A stretch of 64,000 bases of DNA from positions 20,307,600-20,371,599 of the forward strand of contig OY987226.1 in assembly GCA_963920705.1 (NCBI GenBank). The letters run 5' to 3'. This document shows positions 942 to 62,970 of the stretch, in pieces. This DNA is from Odiellus spinosus. Lineage: Eukaryota > Arthropoda > Arachnida > Opiliones > Phalangiidae. Positions within the stretch are counted from its first letter, which is position 1, and each line of letters opens with the position of its first letter. Both the position numbers and the translations under genes were made by a program. Under the pieces are notes generated by a model. The model did not search any database. It was given only the letters and a program-made list of their open reading frames with translations, and was not told the origin of the DNA.

Positions 942-1242
942 AGCCGCGTTCATACTAGACCTTATAATCGTTTTAAACAGTTTCAAAACGTTTCGCTAGA
1001 GTCGTGTGAACAAGCAAGCCGTCTTTTCTCGAATCGTTTTGATTCGATTTTTCGAAACTGCTTCGGGAACCAATTTCATACCGATTCGGTTTTAACAACC
1101 GATAGATGAAGTTACAATAAATCGATTCATAAAGATGTGTGAACACGTGACGCTTAAAACGATTCCTGGCGAGTGGCGATTTGAATATCGATTTGATTTT
1201 ACCGTTGCAAAACGATTAAGAAATGCTAGTGTGACCGTAGCT
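942..1242 (+). mobile_element. Family B MITE, complete copy
   Basis: Left end AGCCGCGTTCATACTAG and right end CTAGTGTGACCGTAGCT are imperfect inverted repeats of about 17 bp. The interior aligns over its whole length with 57687-57971, sharing the GTCGTGTGAACA, CCGATTCGGTTT and CAACCGATAGATGAAG segments. It is about 300 bp and non-coding. The 97-residue frame at 1135-1428 starts inside it and runs out into flanking DNA, so I treat it as chance. Transposase type is unknown. Confidence 0.8.
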
Positions 1243-2299
1243 AATGATCAATTTATAATAAATCGGTTTATGAAAATGATATCCTGTAGAAGTGTTTCAA
1301 CTCTCGTACTACCGTGTACAATGGCAAAGCTCGCATTCAGGGGCAAACAAGAGATAATGTATTTTCTATTGGACACCTGTAAAAGAGCTTCAACATCTGT
1401 TATTTCCTTCGCTGTCTTCCCAGCCTAGAGAAATTTCGCTCTGAAATAATTATTGGAAAGTTTTTATGTTACTTAAACAGCTACACTATTTAGCATAAAA
1501 ATTCAATTTCACTCTTGTTAAATAAATATGGCGGTGAAGGGAGATCGACCCAAACTTGGTCGACTATCTTTTTGAGGGTTATCTTGTTGTTTAGTGTTCT
1601 CTGTAGAGCCGGATACGTGTTGCAATCTATTTGTTTTCTTATCTCTGTCTGTCCGTATACAGGCAGTAATACAGTTTAAGGCTTAGGATATAAATCCCTT
1701 CCCGGAATTGTCAGCCAATCGTTCTTTACCCTCTTAGACACTCTTTAGCTTCGTTCATACTATAGTAACGGCAAAGAAGTGTGTTTATTTCCTACCAATT
1801 CCAGACATCTTGTTTGAGGGGATACAAGAATGAGGAGTATTTGCTGCATTCCCTCTCGAGGCAAAACCAAATCACGGGATATTCGAAAAAAAAAAAAAGT
1901 AATCCCAAACATCCCGGAGGATGATCTCTTTCTTTCTCGCCTTTTGAGTCTTCAAGGCGAAAAGCTATGGGAAAACTAAACGCAAATTTTGAAAAGAATT
2001 TGTTTCCCGTGATGAAGTAGATGGAAAACTTTATTGATTTAATGTTGATATATATACTGATAAACCGTCTTCAAATCTGTTCAAATTGGCTATCCATGTA
2101 ACAATGTCTGTCGGGCTGTGTATCGGACAGTAACGTTAAAGTTTAAGCACGTTGTTAGCGAAATGAGAAAAGCTGAAGTGAATTGATGCACAATTTGTTA
2201 AACCTAATTCCTTTGAATAAAGTAGTGATGTAAACTTCCCATAAATATAGAAGCACGAGTTTGAAATTTACTTATTTATTAGGCTTAAGGATTTGGAGG
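1243..2299. other. Unrecognised AT-rich sequence
   Basis: About 1 kb with no repeat copy I can match elsewhere in the window. It holds an A-tract near 1888 and several short chance frames. No splice-site and codon pattern persuades me of an exon. Confidence 0.4.
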
Positions 2300-2846
2300 T
2301 AAAGCTCGGAATCGGATAATGAATAACTTAGAATATCCATTGATATCTAAGCTTCTTTCAGATATTTTAATCTCGGATAATTGTTTGGTAATATAAACAC
2401 AAATTATATAAACAGACGTGTATCAAATGGATACTTATTATCCTCAGATAAAATTTTAAGCTTGATTAATAAACAAATTACGTGTTTATTCAAACGGATA
2501 ATGCGAAGATAAAAATATGATGTTTCTCAAAATCCGTGTAGAATTAAATATAATAACAATATTTTAATCTAAATTGAAAGGAATAGACTAAATTATTACA
2601 TTCTAGTTTCAAGATCTCAATTTGGGTTAAAATCCCAAAAATTAAAATTATCTTATTGGCGAATGAATAACTCGCATAACGTATCAATTTCCTATAACAA
2701 TGAGTACGAATAAAAAGTTTGCCTTACATTGGGATACGTTAACTCGAATAAGAATTGGATTTCTTTTCGCGAACGGATAATATCTGATTGACATTCACAA
2801 TGGTCTTATTCAATTAAAAAAACTTTATACGAATTTCGAGCTCTAG
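2300..2846 (+). mobile_element. Family A MITE, complete copy (547 bp)
   Basis: Left end AAGCTCGGAATCGGATAA and right end CGAATTTCGAGCTCTAG form imperfect terminal inverted repeats. The interior is nearly colinear with 44279-44803: both share the AATTATATAAACAGACGTGT, ATCAAATGGATA, CAAACGGATAATGCG and AAGTTTGCCTTACATT blocks. TA flanks the right end. TA duplications plus this length fit a non-autonomous Tc1/mariner-type element, but that class is inferred from ends only. Confidence 0.85.
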
Positions 2847-3460
2847 CTGCGGTCGCGACAAAAGCTGAGTAAATTGAGTAATTTTCATATATTACGAATT
2901 TTTTGACCAAATTTATTACAATCATTTTTTATCATTCTTAAAAAACCCGTCATATTTGACGGTTTTTAGCTAGTTCAATATAATCTTTGTGCTTCTTGAT
3001 AATATTTTTTACAAATTAGGCCAAGTGCTCCAAATTGCTGGTCAAACCATTTCAAAGCTTTTAGTACGATCGCGGCTTTAACCTTGTTTCTCACACATTG
3101 GTTATTGATTTTTATTTTCACCGAGGGAGCTTGGTTGTTGTAAAGGGGGGGGGGGTTGTAAGGTAGGATTTAGAAAACGAGCTATCTGGGAATGGGAGTT
3201 TTTTTTCTTTATTTTTTTTTTCAAGCTCCAAATTGGAATTCGATAGATTTCGCTATTGGCATTTTCTCCTCTCACATTTTTTAAAAGCCTCTTTCTTTTC
3301 ACTACATTTATAGTTACATCATCGAAAGCCAACGCCATTTCCCTTCCTCCTCAAGAAAGATCATATTTTTTGGAGTCCACCGTCAAAAACGTAGAAGATA
3401 GTCGAGGTATGTTGTTTGGGAACGGATTCTAAATATGAAATTCTAATTGTCTTCTCACGA
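2847..3460. other. Unrecognised AT-rich sequence with small hairpin and G-run
   Basis: Contains a small perfect hairpin around 2944-2967 (CCGTCA / TGACGG flanked by A and T tracts) and an 11-base G-run at 3145-3155 followed by T-tracts. Nothing coding is supported. Confidence 0.4.
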
Positions 3461-29630: not shown

Positions 29631-31885
29631 TGACTACGGTTACATTGGGCTCTGAACGTCGACGTAAGGGAACGTCGACGTTTCGTCGACGCTCGTGAAC
29701 GTCGACATTCGGAAAAAGGGAGCGGTTACATTGTCGTCATTTGAATGTACCCCTGTAGAATATTTCCTCCAAACGGGGTTTTCTGGTATGGAATGTTAGA
29801 AACGTTAGGATGGCCATGTATAAAATTAAATCGGGATCTTTAAAATTAAATCGGGATCTTTAAAATTAAATCGGGATCTTTAAAATTAAATCGGGATCTT
29901 TAAAATTAAATCGGGATCTTTAAAATTAAATCGGGATCTTTAAAATTAAATCGGGATCTTTAAAATTAAATCGGGATCTTTAAAATTAAATCGGGATCTT
30001 TAAAATTAAATCGGGATCTTTAAAATTAAATCGGGATCTTTAAAATTAAATCGGGATCTTTAAAATTAAATCGGGATCTTTAAAATTAAATCGGGATCTT
30101 TAAAATTAAATCGGGATCTTTAAAATTAAATCGGGATCTTTAAAATTAAATCGGGATCTTTAAAATTAAATCGGGATCTTTAAAATTAAATCGGGATCTT
30201 TAAAATTAAATCGGGATCTTTAAAATTAAATCGGGATCTTTAAAATTAAATCGGGATCTTTAAAATTAAATCGGGATCTTTAAAATTAAATCGGGATCTT
30301 TAAAATTAAATCGGGATCTTTAAAATTAAATCGGGATCTTTAAAATTAAATCGGGATCTTTAAAATTAAATCGGGATCTTTAAAATTAAATCGGGATCTT
30401 TAAAATTAAATCGGGATCTTTAAAATTAAATCGGGATCTTTAAAATTAAATCGGGATCTTTAAAATTAAATCGGGATCTTTAAAATTAAATCGGGATCTT
30501 TAAAATTAAATCGGGATCTTTAAAATTAAATCGGGATCTTTAAAATTAAATCGGGATCTTTAAAATTAAATCGGGATCTTTAAAATTAAATCGGGATCTT
30601 TAAAATTAAATCGGGATCTTTAAAATTAAATCGGGATCTTTAAAATTAAATCGGGATCTTTAAAATTAAATCGGGATCTTTAAAATTAAATCGGGATCTT
30701 TAAAATTAAATCGGGATCTTTAAAATTAAATCGGGATCTTTAAAATTAAATCGGGATCTTTAAAATTAAATCGGGATCTTTAAAATTAAATCGGGATCTT
30801 TAAAATTAAATCGGGATCTTTAAAATTAAATCGGGATCTTTAAAATTAAATCGGGATCTTTAAAATTAAATCGGGATCTTTAAAATTAAATCGGGATCTT
30901 TAAAATTAAATCGGGATCTTTAAAATTAAATCGGGATCTTTAAAATTAAATCGGGATCTTTAAAATTAAATCGGGATCTTTAAAATTAAATCGGGATCTT
31001 TAAAATTAAATCGGGATCTTTAAAATTAAATCGGGATCTTTAAAATTAAATCGGGATCTTTAAAATTAAATCGGGATCTTTAAAATTAAATCGGGATCTT
31101 TAAAATTAAATCGGGATCTTTAAAATTAAATCGGGATCTTTAAAATTAAATCGGGATCTTTAAAATTAAATCGGGATCTTTAAAATTAAATCGGGATCTT
31201 TAAAATTAAATCGGGATCTTTAAAATTAAATCGGGATCTTTAAAATTAAATCGGGATCTTTAAAATTAAATCGGGATCTTTAAAATTAAATCGGGATCTT
31301 TAAAATTAAATCGGGATCTTTAAAATTAAATCGGGATCTTTAAAATTAAATCGGGATCTTTAAAATGAAATCGGGTATATTATTTCGGTATAACTAGTTG
31401 CCTCTGATTTTTATTTAATAATATTAATATAATATAGTATTTATTATATAGTATAATATTAATTGTATGTACTAAATTATATACGCTTATCTTAAATAAT
31501 ATCAGTTAATTTATTTTAAATTTTGAAAATCAAACCTCTGCTATTAACGAATTTTTCAGTAGCTGGCTACTTTGTTCAATAATTTAAATATGTTAAAAAA
31601 ATCGTTATTACGCTTGAGAATAAAGTAGTTTAGAAAATAAAGTGCAATATCAAAAAAATAGTAGCATTTATAAATTAAGAAAAATTCTGCTAAGCAGCGA
31701 ACAACGACTTTCACGGGTTACATGCTACCTCGAACGTCGACGTAAGTCCTTAAATCGACGGTTCGAGGTAGTTTTCGTTAAGTCGACGTATCTCCTCGAA
31801 CGTCGACGTTCGTCCGTTTACATGGAAAAAATGAGCGTCGACGTTCCCTTACGTCGACGTTCAGAGCCCAATGTAACCGTAGTCA
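29631..31885. mobile_element. 2.25-kb inverted-repeat element with ACGTCGACGT-rich ends
   Basis: Left end TGACTACGGTTACATTGGGC continues for 50 bp and is exactly mirrored at 31836-31885. CTA lies outside both ends, a possible 3-bp target duplication. Each end carries repeated GTCGAC palindromes: about four on the left, and about six matches or near-matches in 31730-31862 on the right. GTTACAT words appear at each step, as though the ends were built by internal duplication. Between them lie a 20-bp satellite and about 350 bp of AT-rich DNA. The 105-residue frame at 31642-31959 reads through the right terminal repeat. No transposase is present. A Harbinger-like 3-bp duplication is possible but unproven. 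Confidence 0.88.
29821..31370. repeat. 20-bp satellite, 77 identical copies plus one degenerate
   Basis: The unit TAAAATTAAATCGGGATCTT is repeated 77 times with no substitution that I could see; the 78th unit is altered (TAAAATGAAATCGGGTATAT). The array lies wholly inside the element at 29631-31885. It has stops in its frames, so it is not coding. Confidence 0.98.
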
Positions 31886-51067: not shown

Positions 51068-53405
51068 GAATTTTATATTAAAATTTATATATTTTATATT
51101 AAAAACTATACATTTTTTATATCAAAGTCTGTATATTTTATATTAAATTCTATATTTTGAATTAAAATCAATATATTTTATATTTATAATCGATATATTT
51201 TTATATTTATAATCGATATATTTTTATATTTATAATCGATACATTTTATATTTATAATCCATACATTTTATATTTATAATCCATATATTTTATATTTATA
51301 ATCCATATATTTTATATTTATAATCCATGTATTTTATATTTATAATCCATAGTTTTTATATTTATAATCGATATATCTTATATTTATAATCGATATATCT
51401 TATATTTATAATCGATATATCTTATATTTATAATCGATATATCTTATATTTATAATCGATATATCTTATATTTATAATCGATATATCTTATATTTATAAT
51501 CGATATATCTTATATTTATAATCGATATATCTTATATTTATAATCGATATATTTTATATTTATAATCGATATATCTTATATTTATAATCGATATATTTTA
51601 TATTTATAATCGATATATTTTATATTTATAATCGATATATTTTATATTTATAATCGATATATTTTATATTTATAATCGATATATTTTATATTTATAATCG
51701 ATATATTTTATATTTATAATCGATATATTTTATATTTATAATCGATATATTTTATATTTATAATCGATATATTTTATATTTATAATCGATATATTTTATA
51801 TTTATAATCGATATATTTTATATTTATAATCGATATATTTTTTATTTATAATCGATATATTTTTTATTTATAATCGATATATTTTTTATTTATAATCGAT
51901 ATATTTTTTATTTATAATCGATATATTTTTTATTTATAATCGATATATTTTTTATTTATAATCGATATATTTTTTATTTATAATCGATATATTTTTTATT
52001 TATAATCGATATATTTTTTATTTATAATCGATATATTTTTTATTTATAATCGATATATTTTTTATTTATAATCGATATATTTTTTATTTATAATCGATAT
52101 ATTTTTTATTTATAATCGATATATTTTTTATTTATAATCGATGTATTTTTTATTTATAATCGATGTATTTTTTATTTATAATCGATGTATTTTTTATTTA
52201 TAATCGACGTATTTTTTATTTATAATCGACGTATTTTTTATTTATAATCGACGTATTTTTTATTTATAATCGACGTATTTTTTATTTATAATCGACGTAT
52301 TTTTTATTTATAATCGACGTATTTTTTATTTATAATCGACGTATTTTTTATTTATAATCGACGTATTTTTTATTTATAATCGACGTATTTTTTATTTATA
52401 ATCGACGTATTTTTTATTTATAATCGACGTATTTTTTATTTATAATCGACGTATTTTTTATTTATAATCGACGTATTTTTTATTTATAATCGACGTATTT
52501 TTTATTTATAATCGACGTATTTTTTATAATCGACGTATTTTTTATAATCGACGTATTTTTATAATCGACGTATTTTTATAATCGACGTATTTTTTATTTA
52601 TAATCGACGTATTTTTTATTTATAATCGACGTATTTTTATTTATAATCGACGTATTTTTATTTATAATCGACGTATTTTTATTTATAATCGACGTATTTT
52701 TATTTATAATCGACGTATTTTATATTTATAATCGACGTATTTTATATTTATAATCGACGTATTTTATATTTATAATCGACGTATTTTATATTTATAATCG
52801 ACGTATTTTATATTTATAATCGACGTATTTTATATTTATAATCGACGTATTTTATATTTATAATCGACGTATTTTATATTTATAATCGACGTATTTTATA
52901 TTTATAATCGACGTATTTTATATTTATAATCGACGTATTTTATATTTATAATCGACGTAATTTATATTTATAATCGACGTAATTTATATTTATAATCGAC
53001 GTATTTTATATTTATAATCGACGTATTTTATATTTATAATCGACGTATTTTATATTTATAATCGACGTATTTTATATTTATAATCGACGTATTTTATATT
53101 TATAATCGACGTATTTTATATTTATAATCGACGTATTTTATATTTATAATCGACGTATTTTATATTTATAATCGACGTATTTTATATTTATAATCGACGT
53201 ATTTTTTTATTTATAATCGACGTATTTTTTTATTTATAATCGACGTATTTTTTTATTTATAATCGACGTATTTTTTTTATTTATAATCGACGTATTTTTT
53301 TTATTTATAATCGACGTATTTTTTTATTTATAATCGACGTATTTTTTTATTTATAATCGACGTATTTTTTTATTTATAATCGACGTATTTTTTTATTTAT
53401 AATCG
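51068..53405. repeat. 22-bp AT-rich satellite with ordered variant blocks
   Basis: About 105 units built on TATAATCGATATATTTTATA. Variants occur in contiguous blocks: diverged units to about 51175; CCATATATTTTAT near 51245-51350; CGATATATCTTAT at 51369-51545; CGATATATTTTAT to 51830; CGATATATTTTTTAT to 52135; three CGATGTATTTTTTAT units at 52138-52202; CGACGTATTTTTTAT from 52203; a few 17-18-bp units at 52514-52575; CGACGTATTTTAT at about 52705-53190 with two CGACGTAATTTAT units; CGACGTATTTTTTTAT to the end. Not coding. Confidence 0.98.
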
Positions 53406-54589
53406 ATATGAATCGATATATGATAAAATCCTGTCATCTTACAATCGATTAGAAAATGCACGCCTTGGATCGTAATCTGAAAATGTTTAATGAATTAATA
53501 ATATTTATTTCGTAATTACGTTGTATTGCAACAACGAAGGCACATCCTATAATATAGTTGCCCGAACAATATACAGTATACAAAAATTAACAAAAAGTAA
53601 ATTGTAAATTATGATAGTATTTAATGAAAATCTGGAACATATGAAGTAAGTTTTGTCGGGAAGTCGGCGTTAGTTTGAATAAAATACCACAGAACCGAAA
53701 GTTACTGAAATATCCAACAGCTAGTAGCCACTCTTCTAATTCGGAGGTTTTTTTGATATTGTATAATGACGATGAAGTATAAGACAATATTATATAAAGA
53801 ACTGTAAAGAAAACCATCCTCTTTAGGCTTAGTAACATTACTTCAAAAGCGATCGAAGTAGAAGTATTACGAGATATTTCAAATAGTTTAGCGAAATTGA
53901 AGCAGCGACATAAAAGCGCGTGAAAGGAAAACGTTCAGTATAAAAAACTATTAGATTTTCGACCCTTAATAGAAGTAGCAATGCTTCAAAAAACGAGGAA
54001 TGAAAATAAAATGAGGTTTTGTGGAATTGGATGGCGTTATTCATCTCTATCCATCATCATTGAAAAGGCGACTTTCTCTTTCTCTCTTTGACATTTCAAT
54101 ATGTAATTATACCGTGAAAGGTTTTCTTTTTTTTGGATTCTACCATGCGAGTGTGGAATGAAACCCCCCACTAAGGCTTTACCCTTTCACTATCTTTCCT
54201 TGGAGGAATTATATAAGATTACCAGTGACCGAGTGCTTCATAGTTTATTTTTGTCGGTACCATAATCGTACTGTATACGCGCATCTACTTCAAACTATAT
54301 GGTGGTTTTCGATTTCCAACTTTATATAAAGTCGAGCAATTTGATTGAGGGAGGGATTACCTTAAAAAAAATCTGCCTCGTAAGAGCACAAGGTAATAAT
54401 AACATCAATGGTACTGTAGACAATGTTTCGATTGGGATAGGGTTCTGGTAGATGTGACGTCAGAGCTTCAATCGGATTAAAAAATAATTTGGCGACTTGG
54501 AAATTTAACACTCCCGAAACAGTTGCGTATATAGTTATCATAGGGCTTGACGGTTCGGTGCACCAGGGTCCCATAGATAGCCAGTGGTA
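53406..54589. other. Unrecognised sequence
   Basis: No repeat recognised. Minus-strand frames of 83, 68 and 111 residues at 53587-53838, 53838-54044 and 54362-54697 have no motif, and the last runs into family L. Confidence 0.4.
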
Positions 54590-55064
54590 AAAATGGTATA
54601 TACCCATTGAATAGAATCCTATTGGACCGAATTCCCATTGGTCCGAAATAAAAAATAAATAGTCCCAATCAACCGAATCTTGGCCGACCGAGCCCAATGC
54701 ACCGAATTCCCATTGAACCGAAATCCCGCTGAACCGAATCCCGCTGAACCGAATCCCCCATAGACCGAATTTCCCATTGGGCCGAAACCAAAAAGGGCGT
54801 CCCGATGAATTTAAGCCGATAATGGTTAGGTTAGGTTAGGTTAGGTTAGGTTAGAATGTGTTAATGGACTTCTGATTGTGAACGTCGGTCGAATGGGATT
54901 GACGGTCGAATGGGATTCGGTCGAATGGGATTGACGGTCGAATGGGATTCGGTCGAATGGGATTCTGGTTTACGAAAACGTATCGGTTGAATGGGATTGT
55001 GGATCGAATGGGATTCTGCCCAATGGGATTCTGTCCAATGGAATTCTGTCCAATGGTCGAGAAG
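54590..55064 (+). mobile_element. Family L element with central (TTAGG)6, copy 1
   Basis: The left half is a loose array of CCGAATYCCCATTG-type words (also TTGGACCGAATTCCCATTGG). The right half is an array of the reverse word, CGGTCGAATGGGATT. Between them is (GGTTA)6 at 54824-54854. The whole is therefore a quasi-palindrome centred near the TTAGG tract. The same sequence in reverse orientation is at 60130-60620 with almost no substitutions. Outer borders are sharp, at AAAATGGTATATACC and GGTCGAGAAGC. No transposon class recognised. Confidence 0.85.
54824..54854 (+). repeat. Interstitial (TTAGG)6
   Basis: 31 bp of perfect GGTTA repeat, the arthropod-type telomere unit, embedded in family L. 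Confidence 0.95.
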
Positions 55065-55171
55065 CGTAAAAATACGTGGGGGAGATTTTTTACATGCATT
55101 ATTAACGCGAACATATTAGAAGTGTATGATGATATAGCTAATAGGTCCAATGGATGAGATCGCTAAACATG

Positions 55172-55414
55172 ACTATACCGAGGCTACCCGCGATTACCGA
55201 GGCTACCCGCGATTACCGAGGCTACCCGCGATTACCGAGGCTACCCGCGATTACCGAGGCTACCCGCGATTACCGAGGCTACCCGCGATTACCGAGGCTA
55301 CCCGCGATTACCGAGGCTACCCGCGATTACCGAGGCTACCCGCGATTACCGAGGCTACCCGCGATTACCGAGGCTACCCGCGATTACCGAGGCTACCCGC
55401 GATTACCGAGGCTT
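55172..55414. repeat. 19-bp minisatellite, about 12.5 copies
   Basis: The unit GATTACCGAGGCTACCCGC is repeated with almost no variation. It is GC-rich against an AT-rich background. Two frames stay open through it because 57 bp (three units) contains no stop, giving 95- and 108-residue artefacts with a 19-residue period. Confidence 0.98.
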
Positions 55415-55871
55415 TCGCTTTTTCTCTCGAAAACTAGATTTTTTTTAATGATTAGCCATTCGGTTATGCCTCAATCGTAGTGTAGTTCTGATCTTTACAA
55501 TGTACAAACTATAACTAAGGGTAGACATTCAATTCAGTGGGACAAAGCTAGATTGATAACGCGCTTAAAAACCTGGTACTTTCAAGGAGGGTGTTAAAAT
55601 TACGAAATGGAGCAAACTCAACTTTAACAAAGGAAGGATTGATGTAAAAACCAGGGGGAGGGTGTTAAGTTAAAAAGCTGCCAATTGCGGGAAAAAATAT
55701 AAATAAATCTAAAAGTACCCTAAAATTTCCGTGGTCAAAGTGACTTAAATTACCTATTGAATATCATTACGAAGCTTCTCTTGAGCTAGTTTTTTGCTTG
55801 TTTATTTTAGATTATAAATGGATTGAAAAAGGGACAGGTACGACCGAAAGCTGTCCGTAAACGTTTATTTA
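55415..55871. other. Unrecognised sequence
   Basis: GGAGGGTGTTAA occurs twice (near 55585 and 55658) in similar contexts. Otherwise unmatched. Confidence 0.4.
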
Positions 55872-56381
55872 ATAAACTCTTTTTGGAGCTAGAAATGAAA
55901 CAGCTTTGGAATTTATTTTCGGAATCACCATGCCAAAAACGTAGTCGAGAATTTTCAAAACCATTTTAAAATAATATCTAAAGTTTGATAAGGTTTGAAT
56001 AAAAGTAAATATAAATTCGGGCCAATCATATTATTTCACCCTTCAAAAGCGGTTGTAATGCCGTAACATTAAAATAATATGCCGGCATTTAATGGCCAAG
56101 GTTTTGGGCATCGAACGGCAGTCTATTCTTTCAATGTTAGAACATACAAACGCTGTTGAAGGCTGAAATAATATGATTGGCCCGAATTTAAATTTACTTT
56201 TATTCAACCTTTACCAAAATACTATTATAGAAATTTTACCAAGCTTTATAAATTAATTGAAACACCGAAAACGTGTCTAATAATTGTTTTGAAAATTTTC
56301 GAATACGGTTTTATGCCACTGTGATTTTGAAAATAAATTCAAAAACTGCTCCATTTTTAGCTCCTTCAAGTTTTCCTGTAA
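55872..56381. mobile_element. Family C fold-back MITE, complete long copy (510 bp)
   Basis: Left arm TTTTTGGAGCTAGAAATGAA and right arm TTTTTAGCTCCTTCAAGTTT are inverted. Pairing persists for over 200 bp, including ATCACCATGCCAAAAACGTA, GAGAATTTTCAAAACC, AAAAGTAAATATAAATTCGG and GGCCAATCATATTATTTCA with their inverses. The centre includes CCAAGGTTTTGGGC. Arms are longer than in the copy at 33750. Non-coding. Confidence 0.9.
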
Positions 56382-56523
56382 TAATATTTTATGATTAGTA
56401 ACCTTTATTTGAGATAAATATTCGTAATTTGAAGTTAAGAATATTCAGGTTTTTCCAGGAAAAATAAACTAGATCCACCATTATTTTTAACGTCGATGTA
56501 CAATGTAGAAGCTTTTTTTCCCT
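56382..56523. other. Unrecognised spacer
   Basis: AT-rich, no feature. Confidence 0.4.
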
Positions 56524-56602
56524 GCCTTTGACTGTACAAATTTCACGCGCCAGATGGGGACATGTCCCCCTCTGGCGCGTGAAATTTGCAGAGTCAAAGG
56601 CG
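56524..56602. repeat. 79-bp near-perfect palindrome
   Basis: GCCTTTGACTGTACAAATTT then CACGCGCCAG is mirrored across GGGGACATGTCCCC, with only two or three mismatches. A related inner word, GTCAAAGGCGAG, recurs at 56717 and GGCGCGTGA at 56768, so the palindrome may be one end of a decayed element reaching about 56780. No target duplication found. Confidence 0.85.
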
Positions 56603-57501
56603 AGAGGTCCGACACTCTTGAATTCGCTGTACAGCTGAGTTCACTGAGTTCAGCTTTGACAGTGCAAAGAGTTACAAAATTTTTTAAACCTGGGTTCGCG
56701 AGTGTCTGCCCCCTCGGTCAAAGGCGAGCATTAGTGCGTGAAAGTATTTTCTTTCCTGACATTTTTGGCGCGTGACTTTGGTAGGGTTGTGGATCTAGTT
56801 AATTTTTCATATATCTATGGCCTCTCTATATTAGCGGAAGTGTTGAATAATTCCAGTCCTAAGTAGAATACAATTGATGCTATGAGAAACGATTTCTTAT
56901 TTTAAAACTTTTATGACTGGTAATTCAGTTGAATAAAGTCAACCGTATGTCTATAGGAAGTCATGGAAAGGAAATTGAGTCGAAAGACCGAGCTAAAAGA
57001 TAATTTTGTCGACTCATTCTTGGTGTTATTCCTTCTCTCTGAGTGTCTCTGGTATTCTTGGAGCTAGAGAGGAGAGAGAGAGAGAGATCGGTGGAGGAGA
57101 GCAAGTTGCGGAGAAATATATTTTTAAATAGGTTGCCTCCCTCTTTCGGCCGCCAACGCAAATTCCCCGCTTCAAAAATCCAGTGCAATGTACCGTTGAT
57201 TCGATCAGTGCCCTCCGGGTACTTCTACTTAATTACTAATGTAAGGCTTTGATATTTAAAATTACAAGCCTTTTTTTTTAAAGTTAAACATTTATGTTAT
57301 TGGCGTTCGTCATGGGGAATTTGCAACAGTGCGAGGCTGAGAGACGAATTGATATGCCCCATGTTAAAAGGATAATGTAGACGAGGACGTTGTTTCTAAA
57401 AGATTAGGAATGTAAAAATATGGGTAAAAACATCATTAACATTCACGAATGGTTTCTAATAAGTTTGAAATATTTTTGAAAACGTTACGTCTCGAACCCA
57501 C
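56603..57501. other. Unrecognised sequence with (GA)n
   Basis: A short (GA)n run lies at 57066-57087. Frames of 69-75 residues on opposite strands overlap and lack motifs. Confidence 0.4.
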
Positions 57502-58030
57502 TAAAGCCGCTTTCGCACATAAAATTTCAAACCGTTTTTAGAAAGGTCATTATTTTTGGAAAACAGTCGCGAAACGATTTGAAAAACAGTAGCTGCGTTC
57601 ATACTAGGACTTGGAATCGATTTAAAGCATTTCAAAACGTTTCGCTAGAGTCGAAACGATTTGACTCTATTTCTCGAAACTACTTCAGCTGCGTTCATAC
57701 TAGGCCTTGGAATCGATTTAAACCGTTTCAAACGAGTCGTGTGAACAGGAAGTCGTCTTTTCTCGAATCGATTTGATTCGATTTCTTGAAACCGCTTCGG
57801 GAAGCAGTTTCATACCGATTCGGTTTCAACAACCGATAGATGAAGCTACAATAAATCGATTTAAAAAGAAAATGTGTGAACGCGTGACGGTTAAAACGAT
57901 TCTGGCGATTTGAATATCGGTTTAATTTTACCGTTTCACATCGATTAAGAAATGCCAGTGTGACCATAGCTTTTGATTTTACCGTTTCACATCGATTAAG
58001 AAATGCTATTGTGACCTTAGCTAGTGTGTA
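57502..58030 (+). mobile_element. Family B cluster: two partial copies, one complete, one duplicated end
   Basis: In order: a diverged 5' fragment (AAAGCCGCTTTCGCACATAA) from 57502; a 5' fragment from 57593 (GCTGCGTTCATACTAGGACT); a complete copy 57687-57971, from AGCTGCGTTCATACTAGGCC to AGTGTGACCATAGCT; then an extra 3' end to about 58022 (TTACCGTTTCACATCGATTA and TGTGACCTTAGCT). The 109-residue minus-strand frame lies within the cluster and is not a gene. Confidence 0.8.
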
Positions 58031-58142
58031 ATCAAGGAAGCGGTTGTTCATCCGCAAGATATTCTCTCCATTAGGGATGATGGTTATTGTTATCTACCTG
58101 TTTGTTTGGAGAAATACGGGAGAATCGCCAGTTTTCACATAA

Positions 58143-58260
58143 CCCGCGTTCACACTAGAGACTTTGAAACCATTTTCAATCGTTTTGGAAAGGTCAAACT
58201 GTAAAATAGTTAATATTATCTTGAAAAGTTGATTTGAAGATTCAAAATGGTTTCAAACCA
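58143..58260 (+). mobile_element. Family B, 5' partial copy
   Basis: CCCGCGTTCACACTAGAGAC and then AAACCATTTTCAATCGTTTT resemble the family B left end. The 3' end is absent. Confidence 0.6.
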
Positions 58261-58435
58261 TCCTAATCTAACATTTGGAAGGTGATACTGATATTATTGG
58301 TAAACTTATAAAGTGGAGCCAAATTGTACCTTTTCCGCGTTCGCTCAAAGAAAAAGCATGGAAGACTGCAAACATATTATTTGCTTTTGGACAGTTAAAA
58401 TTAATATAATGTGTAAAAACATGGATTATTAAAAT

Positions 58436-58767
58436 CAGAAGCTGATGAAACCTTCCTTTGAAGTATATTACTCCCGGGTCTTGTAATGTATGGGAACTTA
58501 GTCTCAAAAATCACGATTCGTACGCCTCCTAACGGTAGATATTTTCGGAGCGGGAGTTCGTCCAGCGAATATCTCTAGCAAGCTTGGAGTTCGTCAACCA
58601 AACGTCGTCGTATGTGGAGAGAGAAAATTTCCAATTTTCCGTAGACAGGGGAGTATGAAGTAGGACCCCTCCGATCACGTAAAATTGTGAGTTTTACCCA
58701 TACAGAGAGGAGCGCTATATGGAACATTAGAGTAGTAGACTTCAAAGGAGGGTTTCATCGTCTTCTG
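58436..58767. mobile_element. Family H MITE with 7-bp target duplication
   Basis: Ends CAGAAGCTGATGAAACCTTC and its imperfect inverse GGAGGGTTTCATCGTCTTCTG, one base longer. TTAAAAT lies directly outside both ends (58429-58435 and 58768-58774). Inner GGGAACTTAG... and ...TATATGGAACATTAGAG segments do not pair well, so arms are about 45 bp. A fragment is at 47268. The 79-residue minus-strand frame is inside the element. Confidence 0.85.
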
Positions 58768-58774
58768 TTAAAAT

Positions 58775-59356
58775 CCATGTAAATATTGCTTCTAATTTAA
58801 AAAAAACATTCCATCAAAGTACTGAACTGAATTCGCTTACCCTAAAATAGTCAGAATTGCTGATGCAAATGAGAGATCTTCTAAAACTGGCGAAATAAAC
58901 AATTTACTCTAAAACTCGCGATATTTCTAAAACAAGAGTCAAAACTAATTTTCATGGTGTAGCTGTTTAAGTAACGTAATAAAACGTTGCAGTAATTATG
59001 GCAGAGCGGAATTCCACTCGGCTGAAAAGACAGCGAAGGAAATAACAGATTGAAGGATTTTAACACTTTTACAAGCGTCCCATAGAAAATAATTTTTTAT
59101 ATCTCGTTTTCCCCTGAATGCGAGCTTTGCCACGGACACGGTTGCAAGAGAGTTGAAACACTTTTAAAGGAGTCCAATAGAAAATACATTATATATCTTT
59201 CGTCCGCACCGTCTACTTTTTAAAAGCGTATGAAGAATATGGGGTTGAATAGCGCATACCCTTCATTAGAATACCCCGGCTTTTGCTTCACTGTTTCAAA
59301 AACTTTAAATAAATATGGTAATAGCAGTTTTGATTGTATTAACGGTATATGAGAAA
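58775..59356. other. Unrecognised sequence
   Basis: No repeats matched. Confidence 0.4.
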
Positions 59357-59585
59357 TAGAGCTCGGAATCGGATATCCATTATGTTCTGTAATTCGTATA
59401 TTTTCAGATATTTTATTTTCGGACAAAAAAATGAAATTTGTATGTTCGTATAATTCTTAAATGCATAAAGTTTACCCGAAGATAAGCGTTTGGCGCTCTA
59501 TCTACGAACAAATTGCTCGTATTCAAACGTATAACGATGGATAAGAAAATTCACATTTCCATAATTAGTCTAAAATATAAACTAT
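59357..59585 (+). mobile_element. Family A, left-half copy
   Basis: TAGAGCTCGGAATCGGATAT through ATTCAAACGTATAACGATGG and TTAGTCTAAAATATAA matches 35708-35890. It stops abruptly at the family B fragment. Confidence 0.8.
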
Positions 59586-59593
59586 TTTAAAGA

Positions 59594-59696
59594 TAATGTG
59601 TGAACACGTGACGATTAAAACGACTTCTGGCGTTTTGAATATCGGTTTGATTTCACCGTTTCAAACCGATTAAGAAATCATAGTGTGACCATAGCT
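59594..59696 (+). mobile_element. Family B, right-half copy
   Basis: TGTGTGAACACGTGACGATT through AACCGATTAAGAAATCATAG to TGTGACCATAGCT matches the right third of 942-1242. Confidence 0.8.
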
Positions 59697-60129
59697 TTAA
59701 TTCCGCGGAAACTTTACACTCACCACCATTCTTGTCTGTCTAAAGCCTTATTCAGACAATACAACCTTTGACTCAACTAAAGGAGTCAGCAAAAATGGGG
59801 AACCCTATATAAACAGCGGTCCCAAAAAGAGCAGTCTCGATATAGCAGATTAACAAATTAATGCTTGTAATTGCATTTGATTATAAAGAAAACGAGAGCC
59901 GAAGGTGCGATCTCAGCGGTTCGCTGTTTTAATGATGATGTTTCATTGATATTTTGGTAACTTATTACAAAAGAAACGCTATTCTATGTAAAAACAGCTA
60001 TAGTTGAGAAAATCGTTACACAAAATCCAATATAGTTTGTGGTCCCACTACTCCAAAAATTTTATTACTATCAAATAAATGGATGAAGTCGACCTAGGAA
60101 ACCGTTCTCTTTTTGTTGCTATTTTTAAT
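59697..60129. other. Unrecognised sequence
   Basis: A CTATATAAAC word at about 59810 resembles a TATA box, but nothing downstream supports a gene. Confidence 0.35.
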
Positions 60130-60620
60130 GCTTCTCGACCATTGGACAGAATTCCATTGGACAGAATCCCATTGGGCAGAATCCCATTCGATCCACAATC
60201 CCATTCAACCGATACGTTTTCGTAAACCAGAATCCCATTCGACCGAATCCCATTCGACCGTCAATCCCATTCGACCGAATCCCATTCGACCGTCAATCCC
60301 ATTCGACCGACGTTCACAATCAGAAGTCCATTAACACATTCTAACCTAACCTAACCTAACCTAACCTAACCTAACCTAACCTAACCATTATCGGCTTAAA
60401 TTCATCGGGACGCCCTTTTTGGTTTCGGCCCAATGGGAAATTCGGTCTATGGGGGATTCGGTTCAGCGGGATTCGGTTCAGCGGGATTTCGGTTCAATGG
60501 GAATTCGGTGCATTGGGCTCGGTCGGCCAAGATTCGGTTGATTGGGACTATTTATTTTTTATTTCGGACCAATGGGAATTCGGTCCAATAGGATTCTATT
60601 CAATGGGTATATACCATTTT
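60130..60620 (-). mobile_element. Family L element with central (CCTAA)9, copy 2, inverted
   Basis: Reverse complement of 54590-55064 throughout, with the same sharp borders. The length difference (491 against 475) is almost entirely three additional five-base repeats in the central tract. The near absence of substitutions points to very recent duplication, or to the two arms being kept alike by gene conversion. Confidence 0.88.
60341..60386 (-). repeat. Interstitial (CCTAA)9
   Basis: 46 bp of perfect CTAAC repeat in the centre of the second family L copy. Confidence 0.95.
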
Positions 60621-60677
60621 GCATTTATCCAGTATAAAAGCTAAATCTCGCTAATGATAATGACTAATATATACAAA

Positions 60678-61461
60678 TAAAAGGGAGAATGAAAGGCCGA
60701 AACAACCTATTTTTAATCGATTAAGAATGCTAAAATAATGAGAAAACAATAATATGACTCACCAAAAATATTTCGTTATTTATAATCAATTTCCAAAGTT
60801 CAGATGCTAAGCCTAGGCTGCCTAGCTCGATGAACTAGGCTAGCACGACCTGCATTTTTTTAATATTCGCGGCTGTTCTTGTCGCCAATCACGAGCGAGT
60901 ACGCGTAATTGTAAAAAATGCGCGTACTAGCTCGTGATTGGCGACTAGATCAGACGGGAATCTTAAAAAAAAATGCGGCTCGTGCTCGATTAGTTCGCCG
61001 AGCCAAGAAGGATCAGATAAGGAGAGGAAAAGTGGGAACGGCGCGGCTCCTACTGCGTCCGCCTAAACTCCCACTCTGGGAGAACGGGGGACAGACGGGG
61101 GTAGAGATGCTTCGTGGTAAATTGTTGTCACGTGGGTAAAACGAATCCTTTATGAGACGCGCTAGCTAGCGACCACGTGACAACAGTTTACCTCGAGAAT
61201 TTCCTATCCCCTCTTTCCACCCGAGTGGGAGGTTGGCTCTTCTCTCTCTATCTCAACGCAGCCCCACTTTTCCTCTCCTTATTTGATCCTTCTTGGCCGA
61301 GCTAGGCAGCCTAGGCTTAGCATCTGCAAGTTTCGGAACTTTGGAAATTGATTATAAAATAACGGAATATTTTTCATGAGTTATATTATTGTTTCTCTCG
61401 TTATTTTAGCATTCCTAATCGATTAAAAATAGGTTGTTTTGGCCTTTCATTCTCCCTTTAA
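60678..61461. mobile_element. 783-bp fold-back element with nested hairpins, family D-like ends
   Basis: TAAAAGGGAGAATGAAAGGC and its inverse bound the element. Arms pair through CCTATTTTTAATCGATTA, ATGCTAAGCCTAGGCTGCCT and AAGAAGGATCA / TGATCCTTCTT. Two further hairpins are nested inside: GTCGCCAATCACGAGCGAGT / CTAGCTCGTGATTGGCGAC (60881-60945) and GTAAATTGTTGTCACGTGG / CCACGTGACAACAGTTTAC (61111-61194). The centre is GC-rich. The 73-residue frame at 60918-61139 is basic and without a domain. The outer TTAAAGGGAGAATG word equals that of family D although the rest differs. Confidence 0.9.
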
Positions 61462-61500
61462 CCAATAGACATATAAAAAAAATTATGTTTTAAATGTTTT

Positions 61501-61670
61501 AATGGGAAACTTGGAGCTGATAATTTTTTAATTTTTTATCGTAATTACCATGCCAAAAAACGTATTCGAGAATTTTCAATTTTCAGACACTTTTTGGTGT
61601 TTAAAATAATTTCTAAAGTTGTGTAAAATTTGAAGAAAATTAAATATAAATAATTTCGCAACATTTTCTA
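61501..61670 (+). mobile_element. Family C, left-half copy
   Basis: GGGAAACTTGGAGCTGATAA, ACCATGCCAAAAAACGTATT, GAGAATTTTCAATTTTCAGA and GTGTTTAAAATAATTTCTAA match the left arm of other copies; the right arm is absent. Confidence 0.8.
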
Positions 61671-62214
61671 ATTAACTGCGAATTACCACGAAACTTTTAG
61701 TGAGTTTTGTTTCATTTGTTTTTACTCTTATTTTTGAAGAATTAGAACATCTAATTCGCGAAGCACTCTTGCTAATTAAAATATAATTCCATTTAGTCCT
61801 TCTTATTATACTCGTAAATTAAAAACAAAAAAAAAACAAAAAATTGCTTTTAATCCTAACTAACAGTTGTCCTACTTTTTCATCAACGGGGTTTTAGCGC
61901 GTACTTCTCTCTCTCATGTTGCTTGCTTTGGGCCTTCGTTCTTTAATTCCGATGGTTTATTCTCCCTCTCGAGTTCACAGAACGCCTAACCTTGGGTTTT
62001 AATTTATATCTATAAGCAGAAGTTAATATTAAACATTGTACAAATTCGGGAGAGCCTCTATGTAGCTTCGCTTGCCATATGAAACGTCTATCCAATCGAG
62101 CGGAGAAATGGAAAAACTTGAATCTTTAGGACTAGTTTAGAAATCATCAAACAGTAGCTAAAGTTAGTAACTAACAAATTCTCGTGCGGAAAGAATTCGA
62201 CAATGTTATATGGT
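61671..62214. other. Unrecognised sequence
   Basis: AT-rich, with an A-run near 61830; no repeat matched. Confidence 0.4.
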
Positions 62215-62555
62215 TTGCGTCCGCTTGCGCAGTTTCCCACTTGCGCATTTTCATTTGCTCAGTAGCCATTTGCGCGGTTTTCCATTTGCGCATTGCCATT
62301 TGCACGGTTCCCATTTGCACAGTTTTCCATTTGCGCAGTTGGCCATTCGAGCTGTCCACAAGAGGGACAGGCTAGTTTGAGTGATTAACTAACCTAACCT
62401 AACTTATAATATAACAAGAGGGACAGGCTAGTTCGAGTGATTAACTAACCTAACCTAACATAACCTGCAAATGAATAAAGCGGAAATGGAAACCTGCGGA
62501 AATGGAAACCTGCGGAAATGGAAATGCACTTGTGGGAACTGCGCAATTGGAACCT
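62215..62555. mobile_element. Family M element: inverted word arrays around CCTAA tracts
   Basis: The left part is an array of CCATTTGCGCAGTTTT-type words (about seven, each 15-19 bp). The right part carries the inverse word, CTGCGGAAATGGAAA, three times and then CACTTGTGGGAACTGCGCAA. Outer segments TTGCGCAGTTTCCCAC and GTGGGAACTGCGCAA are inverted repeats. In the centre a 47-bp segment (AAGAGGGACAGGCTAGTT onward) occurs twice, each ending in ACTAACCTAACCTAAC. Architecture parallels family L, but the words differ. Confidence 0.75.
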
Positions 62556-62970
62556 TACCGGCTTATATGCCGTGCAAAATAAACTGAAGTATTTCTCTTA
62601 ATCGCATTTAAGTTCTAAGATAAATTTTGATAATTTAGTGAGGGGTCTGAATATCGTAATCTAGCCCATTATCTTACTACAGCTCACCTCGGGCTCGGGT
62701 TCAAGCAAATTTTATGGTCTCAACTATGTTTGTAATGGAATGAACCAGGGCTAACGTTTGTGATTTTTTTTTTTGGAGAATACTTACATCGGGCTCAAGA
62801 ATTTATTTGTACATTTATAGACCTCCGCTTAAACCCATGTTTTCATTATTCGGTCGAAATAAGTTGTTATACCTATGGATTAAGTACATCATTTTGTATG
62901 CATTTCCATAATCATAACTCAATAGTGGGCGACGAATCTTTTGCGAGTAGAGAAATGAAAGAAGAATAGT
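62556..62970. other. Unrecognised sequence
   Basis: A 69-residue plus-strand frame at 62760-62969 ends at the border of the next element; no domain recognised. Confidence 0.4.

Follow-up and report, generated by a model that had tools for sequence, protein, structure and literature searches.

How does a telomere repeat come to lie in the middle of an inverted array of short words inside a chromosome? The question is raised by a 64,000-nucleotide stretch of the genome of Odiellus spinosus (C2:20307600-20371599, in an assembly of 443 Mb and 286 contigs; hereafter the window), which holds two repeat families, here named L and M, with just such a plan. Interstitial telomere repeats are often taken as the scars of chromosome fusion or break repair, and the first-pass annotation of the window had pointed to telomeric insertion during repair or to palindromic growth around a TTAGG seed. 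We show that L and M are dispersed mobile elements, built as inverted arrays of ~15-16 bp words round a TTAGG-containing core. We consider it likely that L, M and other TTAGG-centred word-array families are non-autonomous, foldback-type miniature inverted-repeat transposable elements (MITEs) mobilised by Phantom-clade Mutator transposases, and that TTAGG is an inherited internal module of these elements. The central piece of telomere repeat seems to be a leftover from the region that precedes the transposase gene in the parent element.

Structure and mobility of L and M

The first L copy occupies 54595-55065 on the forward strand (471 bp) and runs from a GGTATATACC tip through a 5' word arm, the core tract (GGTTA)6 at 54824-54854 on the same strand and a 3' word arm to a GTCGAGAAGC tip, the ends being common to the genome copies. 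It is bounded at 54587-54594 and 55066-55073 by an exact 8-bp target-site duplication (TSD), GTAAAAAT. The second copy (60130-60615, reverse strand, 486 bp) is a separate insertion with an imperfect TSD (2/9 mismatches) and a core tract of nine units at 60341-60386, also on the reverse strand. The two copies are inverted relative to each other and are 99% complementary across their two longest matched blocks, and in each the (GGTTA)n tract occupies about the centre of the inverted word array. When copy 1 is folded as single-stranded DNA, it gives one long hairpin with the tract in its loop (z -5.06, with 0 of 100 shuffles as good). The order of array, TTAGG tract and inverted array described in the first-pass annotation therefore stands for L, but it needed correction for M. 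The M element (62212-62559, 348 bp, ends placed by eye from 30 genome copies) is read on the reverse strand, chosen so that its GGTA tip precedes TTAGG, and its core is two ~56-bp direct repeats, at 62359-62414 and 62415-62460 on that same strand, each with CTAACCTAACCTAAC at its end, instead of one long tract. Its ends are GGTTTGCGTCCGC and CCTTACC. The TSD of the window copy is poor, and clean 8-bp TSDs flank several of the 30 copies (by eye, uncounted).

For L, 495 first-look candidates were found in the genome, of which 40 were scored and the 30 best-scoring fetched. An exact TSD of at least 8 bp, taken as the best of a few offsets, flanks 20 of these 30 copies, the other 10 having one or two mismatches, and the core tract ranges from 4 to 11 units. 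With up to two mismatches the genome holds 195 matches to the 5' end and 172 to the 3' end, and 98 of the first 100 5' ends listed are paired with a 3' end 411-559 bp away. Divided by 5, 66 of these 98 lengths leave the same remainder, the pattern to be expected were the tract the chief source of length variation. The median divergence from the majority arms is 0, a figure biased low since the 30 copies are the best-scoring ones, and it points to recent movement. For M there were 1577 first-look candidates, of which 40 were scored, and the copies are more diverged than those of L. Four further M copies, met in the flanks of other loci, have TTAGG-like cores that are often decayed. Arm lengths differ among copies.

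The first-pass annotation had suggested a look for empty sites. When the flanks were joined at 46 junctions, 5 aligned across the junction with uninterrupted copies of a repeat (positions of gaps in these alignments were not mapped): two alignments are good (L038 and the M copy L055), one is fair (L030) and two are weak (L023 and the M copy L062). The features of foldback-type MITEs are thus all found, namely TSDs at discrete ends, long inverted termini of short tandem words, and dispersed non-coding copies; the longest listed open frame overlapping L or M in the window (157 amino acids) reads through L words. The possibility that the two L copies are the ends of a single 6-kb element was considered and rejected, L being an independent dispersed unit. 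Pairing of the L ends among the 100 exact matches listed per end gave no long L element, and left two 5' and two 3' ends unpaired, none of them close together.

In one place (L036) an L element, with TSD GATTCGGT, is inserted within word-array-like sequence, and these elements may therefore nest. Another L copy (L021) adjoins a putative reverse-transcriptase-like frame, and the end of a frame in L022 carries a motif that we take to resemble that of insect gustatory receptors.

TTAGG inside the chromosomes

TTAGG is a telomere repeat of this genome, as seen at one contig end. On the 35.4-Mb contig C1 the first exact (TTAGG)20 begins at 35,430,304 of 35,433,943, that is, in the final ~3.6 kb; at the opposite end the first listed (TTAGG)3 is at 193,635, so no telomere is apparent there. 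Across the genome (TTAGG)3 has 14,497 matches, against 5 for the same pattern read backwards as a control, and (TTAGG)20 has 8,510 against 0. More than half of the (TTAGG)3 matches sit in long arrays, and the difference between the two counts leaves several thousand 15-mers in short tracts. At about 1.9 matches per site, we estimate from these counts that there are roughly up to 3,000 interstitial (TTAGG)3 sites.

Manual merging of the first 100 listed (TTAGG)3 places gave about 52 sites on C1, of which the first 20 in contig order were fetched. These 20 come from one stretch of 1.75 Mb and may not represent the genome. All 20 lie inside elements with inverted arms, which we assigned by eye and with BLAST to about ten families: N-type (five sites; L069, L070, L080, L083 and L087), P (four; L072, L074, L077 and L085), Q (L075 and L079), R (L078 and L088), U (L073 and L076), and single sites of M (L082), S (L081), T (L071), V (L086) and W (L084). 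Clean 8-bp TSDs were read in single copies of N (L069), U (L073), P (L077), S (L081) and R (L088). A scan of the flanks with the family arms, leaving out hits near the locus centres, turned up one V copy and more copies of M; hits of Q, R and W looked unrelated by eye, those of T were A/T-rich, and there was one S hit, in L054.

At 19 of the 20 sites (the exception being L080) the left arm is closer to the reverse complement of the right arm than to the right arm itself, with median similarities of 55.5 inverted and 21.5 direct (one-sided Mann-Whitney P 0.0008), and 15 sites score above the best of 200 shuffles (26). Random centres elsewhere (420 controls) give medians of 20 and 22 with a heavy tail, which reflects a genome full of inverted repeats. 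For this reason few sites beat the random centres: only three, all in the palindromic families U and T, exceed 99% of the controls, a level that none of the word-array sites reaches. Taken one by one, the four P sites and the S site are not conspicuous. On the inverted arms of the sampled TTAGG sites the first-pass annotation was right.

Kinship of the families and polarity of the tract

That one TTAGG-centred architecture is common to families with different words was correctly noted from the start, whereas the claim that L and M are unrelated in sequence has to be given up. Aligned from the element tip, the words of both roughly follow CCATTnGnCCGAATTC. In eight families (L, M, N, P, Q, R, V and W) the tips and first word, aligned gap-free from the element ends, share a terminal consensus, GGTATATTCCCATTTGACCGAATTC on the side preceding TTAGG and GCTTTGCGTCCATTTGACCGAATTC on the other side, with conservation of 143 and 146, where 5000 shuffles reached at most 103 and 105. 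For this alignment the end positions were chosen by hand and the tips typed from fetched copies, and the ends of W, V and Q are less sure as their TSDs are imperfect or A-rich. Judged by their termini, these eight families are related.

The tract also keeps its orientation relative to the tips. By eye, a GGT or GGC tip precedes TTAGG in L, N, P, V, W and Q, and less clearly in M; R, S, U and T are uninformative. Within family P nearly all cores keep the tract, the 17-mer before the core occurring 254 times in the genome and being directly followed by TTAGGTTAGG in 248 of these. TTAGG makes up 15-25 bp of each of the four fetched P copies, one of which measures 144 bp.

A transposase-bearing relative

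Domain searches of the genome covered MULE and FLYWCH, and gave 72 MULE matches and 150 listed FLYWCH places (150 scored of 291 candidates). At least six loci have FLYWCH then MULE, in that order and within ~700 bp, which is the Phantom layout. The upstream DNA was read at five of the six, and a 91% relative lies on C18, outside those five.

The most informative of these loci, L090 on C17, has an open frame of 408 amino acids with FLYWCH (E 6.5e-13) and MULE (E 2.1e-9) domains, and appears from its sequence to be an autonomous element. It spans 1086-3150 of the fetched locus (2.1 kb), with ATTTAAAC at both sides as an 8-bp TSD read from the sequence; a script found the left copy, and the right copy one base off. 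The first arm (about 1086-1345) consists of arrayed words of 14-16 bp. It is followed by the tract CCTAACCTAACCTAACC at 1356-1372, which lies between arm and gene; the first ATG of the open frame comes about 240 bp further on, and the gene is followed by a short second arm. From the edge of the tract outwards, the first arm is 92% identical to the arm of the S MITE at L081, itself flanked by the clean TSD TAGAAGTT.

A second locus, L093 on C7, has a Phantom frame interrupted by stops and, upstream of it, a ~56-bp unit resembling the M core unit and present three times (score 134, against 27 for the best of 300 shuffles). At a third, L092 on C3, a Q element stands in front of the gene. A TTAGG tract is thus carried at three of the five Phantom loci examined. 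The sequence common to Phantom elements and MITEs is, for S, the arm up to the tract, with FLYWCH and MULE lying between the same arms, and for M the core unit; for L no such case was seen.

At L094 (C8:3565732-3566332) a word array of a further family, with ~16 bp words resembling TTTGGTCTCGAGACAG, lies directly upstream of a Phantom transposase within a 601-bp stretch that has no TTAGG. Word arrays without TTAGG had been named in the first-pass annotation as the sign that the two co-occur by chance, and this is the one such case met.

Two other observations concern the domains themselves. At L089 (C142:50000-54200) a MULE frame of 439 amino acids, with what we take to be a SWIM-like motif, stands beside an unrelated frame of 318 amino acids on the other strand. 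All but nine of the 150 listed FLYWCH matches lie on one strand of C6:5642434-6108671 (~466 kb), and almost every one sits in a short open frame. In Drosophila, mod(mdg4) has about 30 alternative FLYWCH exons, and on its sequence the C6 cluster looks like a very large locus of the mod(mdg4) type, with over a hundred.

A proposed origin and its alternatives

Our explanation starts from what can be read directly, that is, from TSDs and discrete ends, from words in inverted arrays, from a polarity that agrees wherever it could be judged, and from one Phantom element with arms and tract. The elements would have composite terminal inverted repeats (TIRs), in which an asymmetric tip of ~10 bp is followed by the degenerate 15-16 bp words, and the autonomous parent would be ordered as arm, (CCTAA)n, transposase gene and arm. 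A Phantom transposase, which we infer to move L and M, would bind the words near each end, probably repeated transposase-binding sites (a putative role modelled on the THAP sites of Galileo, below), and cut at the tips, and insertion with an 8-bp stagger would give the 8-bp duplication. The MITEs would have arisen by deletion, with both arms retained along with the upstream stretch from arm to gene, TTAGG included; deletion of the gene with retention of this stretch would yield an arm-TTAGG-arm element whose tract is near the centre and of fixed polarity. The tract would then change in length by whole 5-bp units, presumably through slippage. It may have served the transposase gene, for example by acting as a promoter element to which a telomere-repeat protein binds, the candidate roles being promoter element, protein dock and passenger.

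With respect to the superfamily, the TSD size of 8 bp (in L, S, N, P and L090) is within the Phantom range of 8-10 bp, the usual 9 not being the rule here. From TSD size Merlin, hAT, P and Zisupton were also considered. The tips of hAT elements are of the type C/TAGNG, and those found here, GGTAT.. and G(C/A)TTT.., do not fit, so that hAT was rejected despite its 8-bp TSD.

Several points weigh against a Phantom origin for all of these families. L would be tied to Phantom by the likeness of its termini and words and by its architecture, the search turned up no autonomous element bearing L or M arms, and the step from parent to MITE is visible for one family only, S. The 601-bp stretch at L093 is too short to show its arms, the tract at L092 may be owed to a nested Q insertion, and at L091 and L094, two of the five loci, there is no TTAGG tract within 600 bp upstream of the FLYWCH domain. 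The MULE locus L089, tried as a parent, was rejected, having neither FLYWCH nor word arms. Families U and T (three of the 20 sites) have plain palindromic TIRs without word arrays and may belong elsewhere. In the nematode element Tm1, as described (PMC3169594), the TSD is mostly 9 bp where ours is 8.

If the Phantom origin is accepted, the role of the tract can be read in two ways. An ancestral Phantom may simply have chanced to hold a TTAGG microsatellite, which has persisted functionless by descent and slippage, and we would put this a little short of an even chance. The shared polarity, the 5-bp steps in L lengths and the decayed tracts of M copies are what it predicts, whereas the recurrence of TTAGG inside families with widely differing words, and the large share of so short an element as the 144-bp P copy that it takes up, are less easily accommodated; loss in some families would also be expected, though a search by TTAGG would miss families that lack the tract. 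It is possible, but to our mind doubtful, that a Phantom lineage adopted the telomere repeat as a conserved cis-acting module, that the MITEs need it, and that these elements seeded most interstitial TTAGG. The module might be, for example, a site at which a telomere-repeat-binding protein docks to act in expression, replication or transposition, and yeast Tbf1 is described as acting on interstitial telomere repeats (PMC9272169). Such a need would keep TTAGG in place internally while words and spacers diverge.

Two of the origins put forward in the first-pass annotation fare less well. The centres of palindromes are fragile, L folds with its tract in the loop, and TTAGG is the repeat found at the end of C1, so that telomerase, or capture of telomeric DNA during break repair at a foldback centre, could have added TTAGG to each family before it spread with the element; repair is a common explanation of short interstitial tracts (PMC9693754). 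We nevertheless regard separate additions as unlikely, given that the tract has the same tip-relative polarity wherever this could be judged, that 248 of 254 P cores agree, that the L090 tract lies off centre between arm and gene, that the M core around its tract is shared with a Phantom upstream region, and that free insertions, expected outside such elements, account for none of the 20 fetched sites. Palindromic growth round a TTAGG seed by local duplication and inversion, with no transposase, would suit arms that are degenerate inverted arrays of one word and vary in length among copies, yet it is very improbable in view of the same polarity and P-core evidence, the discrete ends, 8-bp TSDs and dispersed positions, and the junctions that match uninterrupted copies, and for L it is already contradicted by the TSDs and fixed ends.

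Other features of the window

A perfect 19-bp tandem array (TACCGAGGCTACCCGCGAT, 12.5 copies, 100% match) at 55176-55413 adjoins L copy 1, and other long arrays lie at 29821-31375 (20 bp x 78, 99%) and 51070-53409 (22/44/66 bp). Between L copy 2 and M, a nested palindrome of ~780 bp at 60680-61459, with arms of 67 nt at 94% and inner inverted pairs too, is probably another MITE. A Pfam search of ten window frames, all outside L and M, gave no match.

Comparison with known systems

In the sample taken, interstitial TTAGG is the cargo of transposon-like elements, mostly MITEs of the Foldback/Phantom type, so that intrachromosomal TTAGG signals in such species need not mean fusions. Interstitial telomeric sequences of the repair type are likewise described as short telomere-repeat tracts inside chromosomes (PMC9693754). 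They differ in that a tract in otherwise unrelated DNA, by which they are recognised, was found at 0 of the 20 fetched sites, all of which lie between the inverted arms of element-like repeats, several with TSDs. The question becomes why a DNA transposon keeps a telomere repeat next to the transposase gene and retains it even in its shortest derivatives.

The plan itself, for which the first-pass annotation knew no standard transposon type, matches that of Foldback elements with composite TIRs. Galileo is described as foldback-like, with long TIRs holding internal tandem repeats (PMC3573991, PMC3688188) in which there are additional binding sites for the THAP transposase (PMC3688188), but it has a transposase of the P superfamily and a 7-bp TSD (PMC3573991, PMC3688188). 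Tetris of Drosophila virilis, as reported, shares long internally repetitive TIRs, non-coding copies, a TSD of 8-10 bp and a suggested place in the Mutator superfamily, and differs in having ~220-bp repeats and in that no transposase-bearing copy of it was found (PMC4079207); 'TTAGG' occurs 0 times in the text of that paper. The closest match is Tm1 of root-knot nematodes, described as a Mutator/Foldback (Phantom) family with asymmetric tips, TIRs of variable-number 13-15 bp tandem words, MITE-like and transposase-bearing members, a FLYWCH and MULE transposase and TSDs of 8-10 bp (PMC3169594). Tm1 differs in its tip and word sequences, and some of its members are said to carry a histone hairpin (PMC3169594); 'telomer' occurs 0 times in the text of the Tm1 paper. 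Among the titles and beginnings of abstracts listed, mostly of non-subscription papers, we found no TTAGG-cored Mutator or foldback element. Arms of the Tm1-like Mutator/Foldback kind are already known, and what we did not find in print is a telomere-repeat module that holds a fixed place and is spread over many families.

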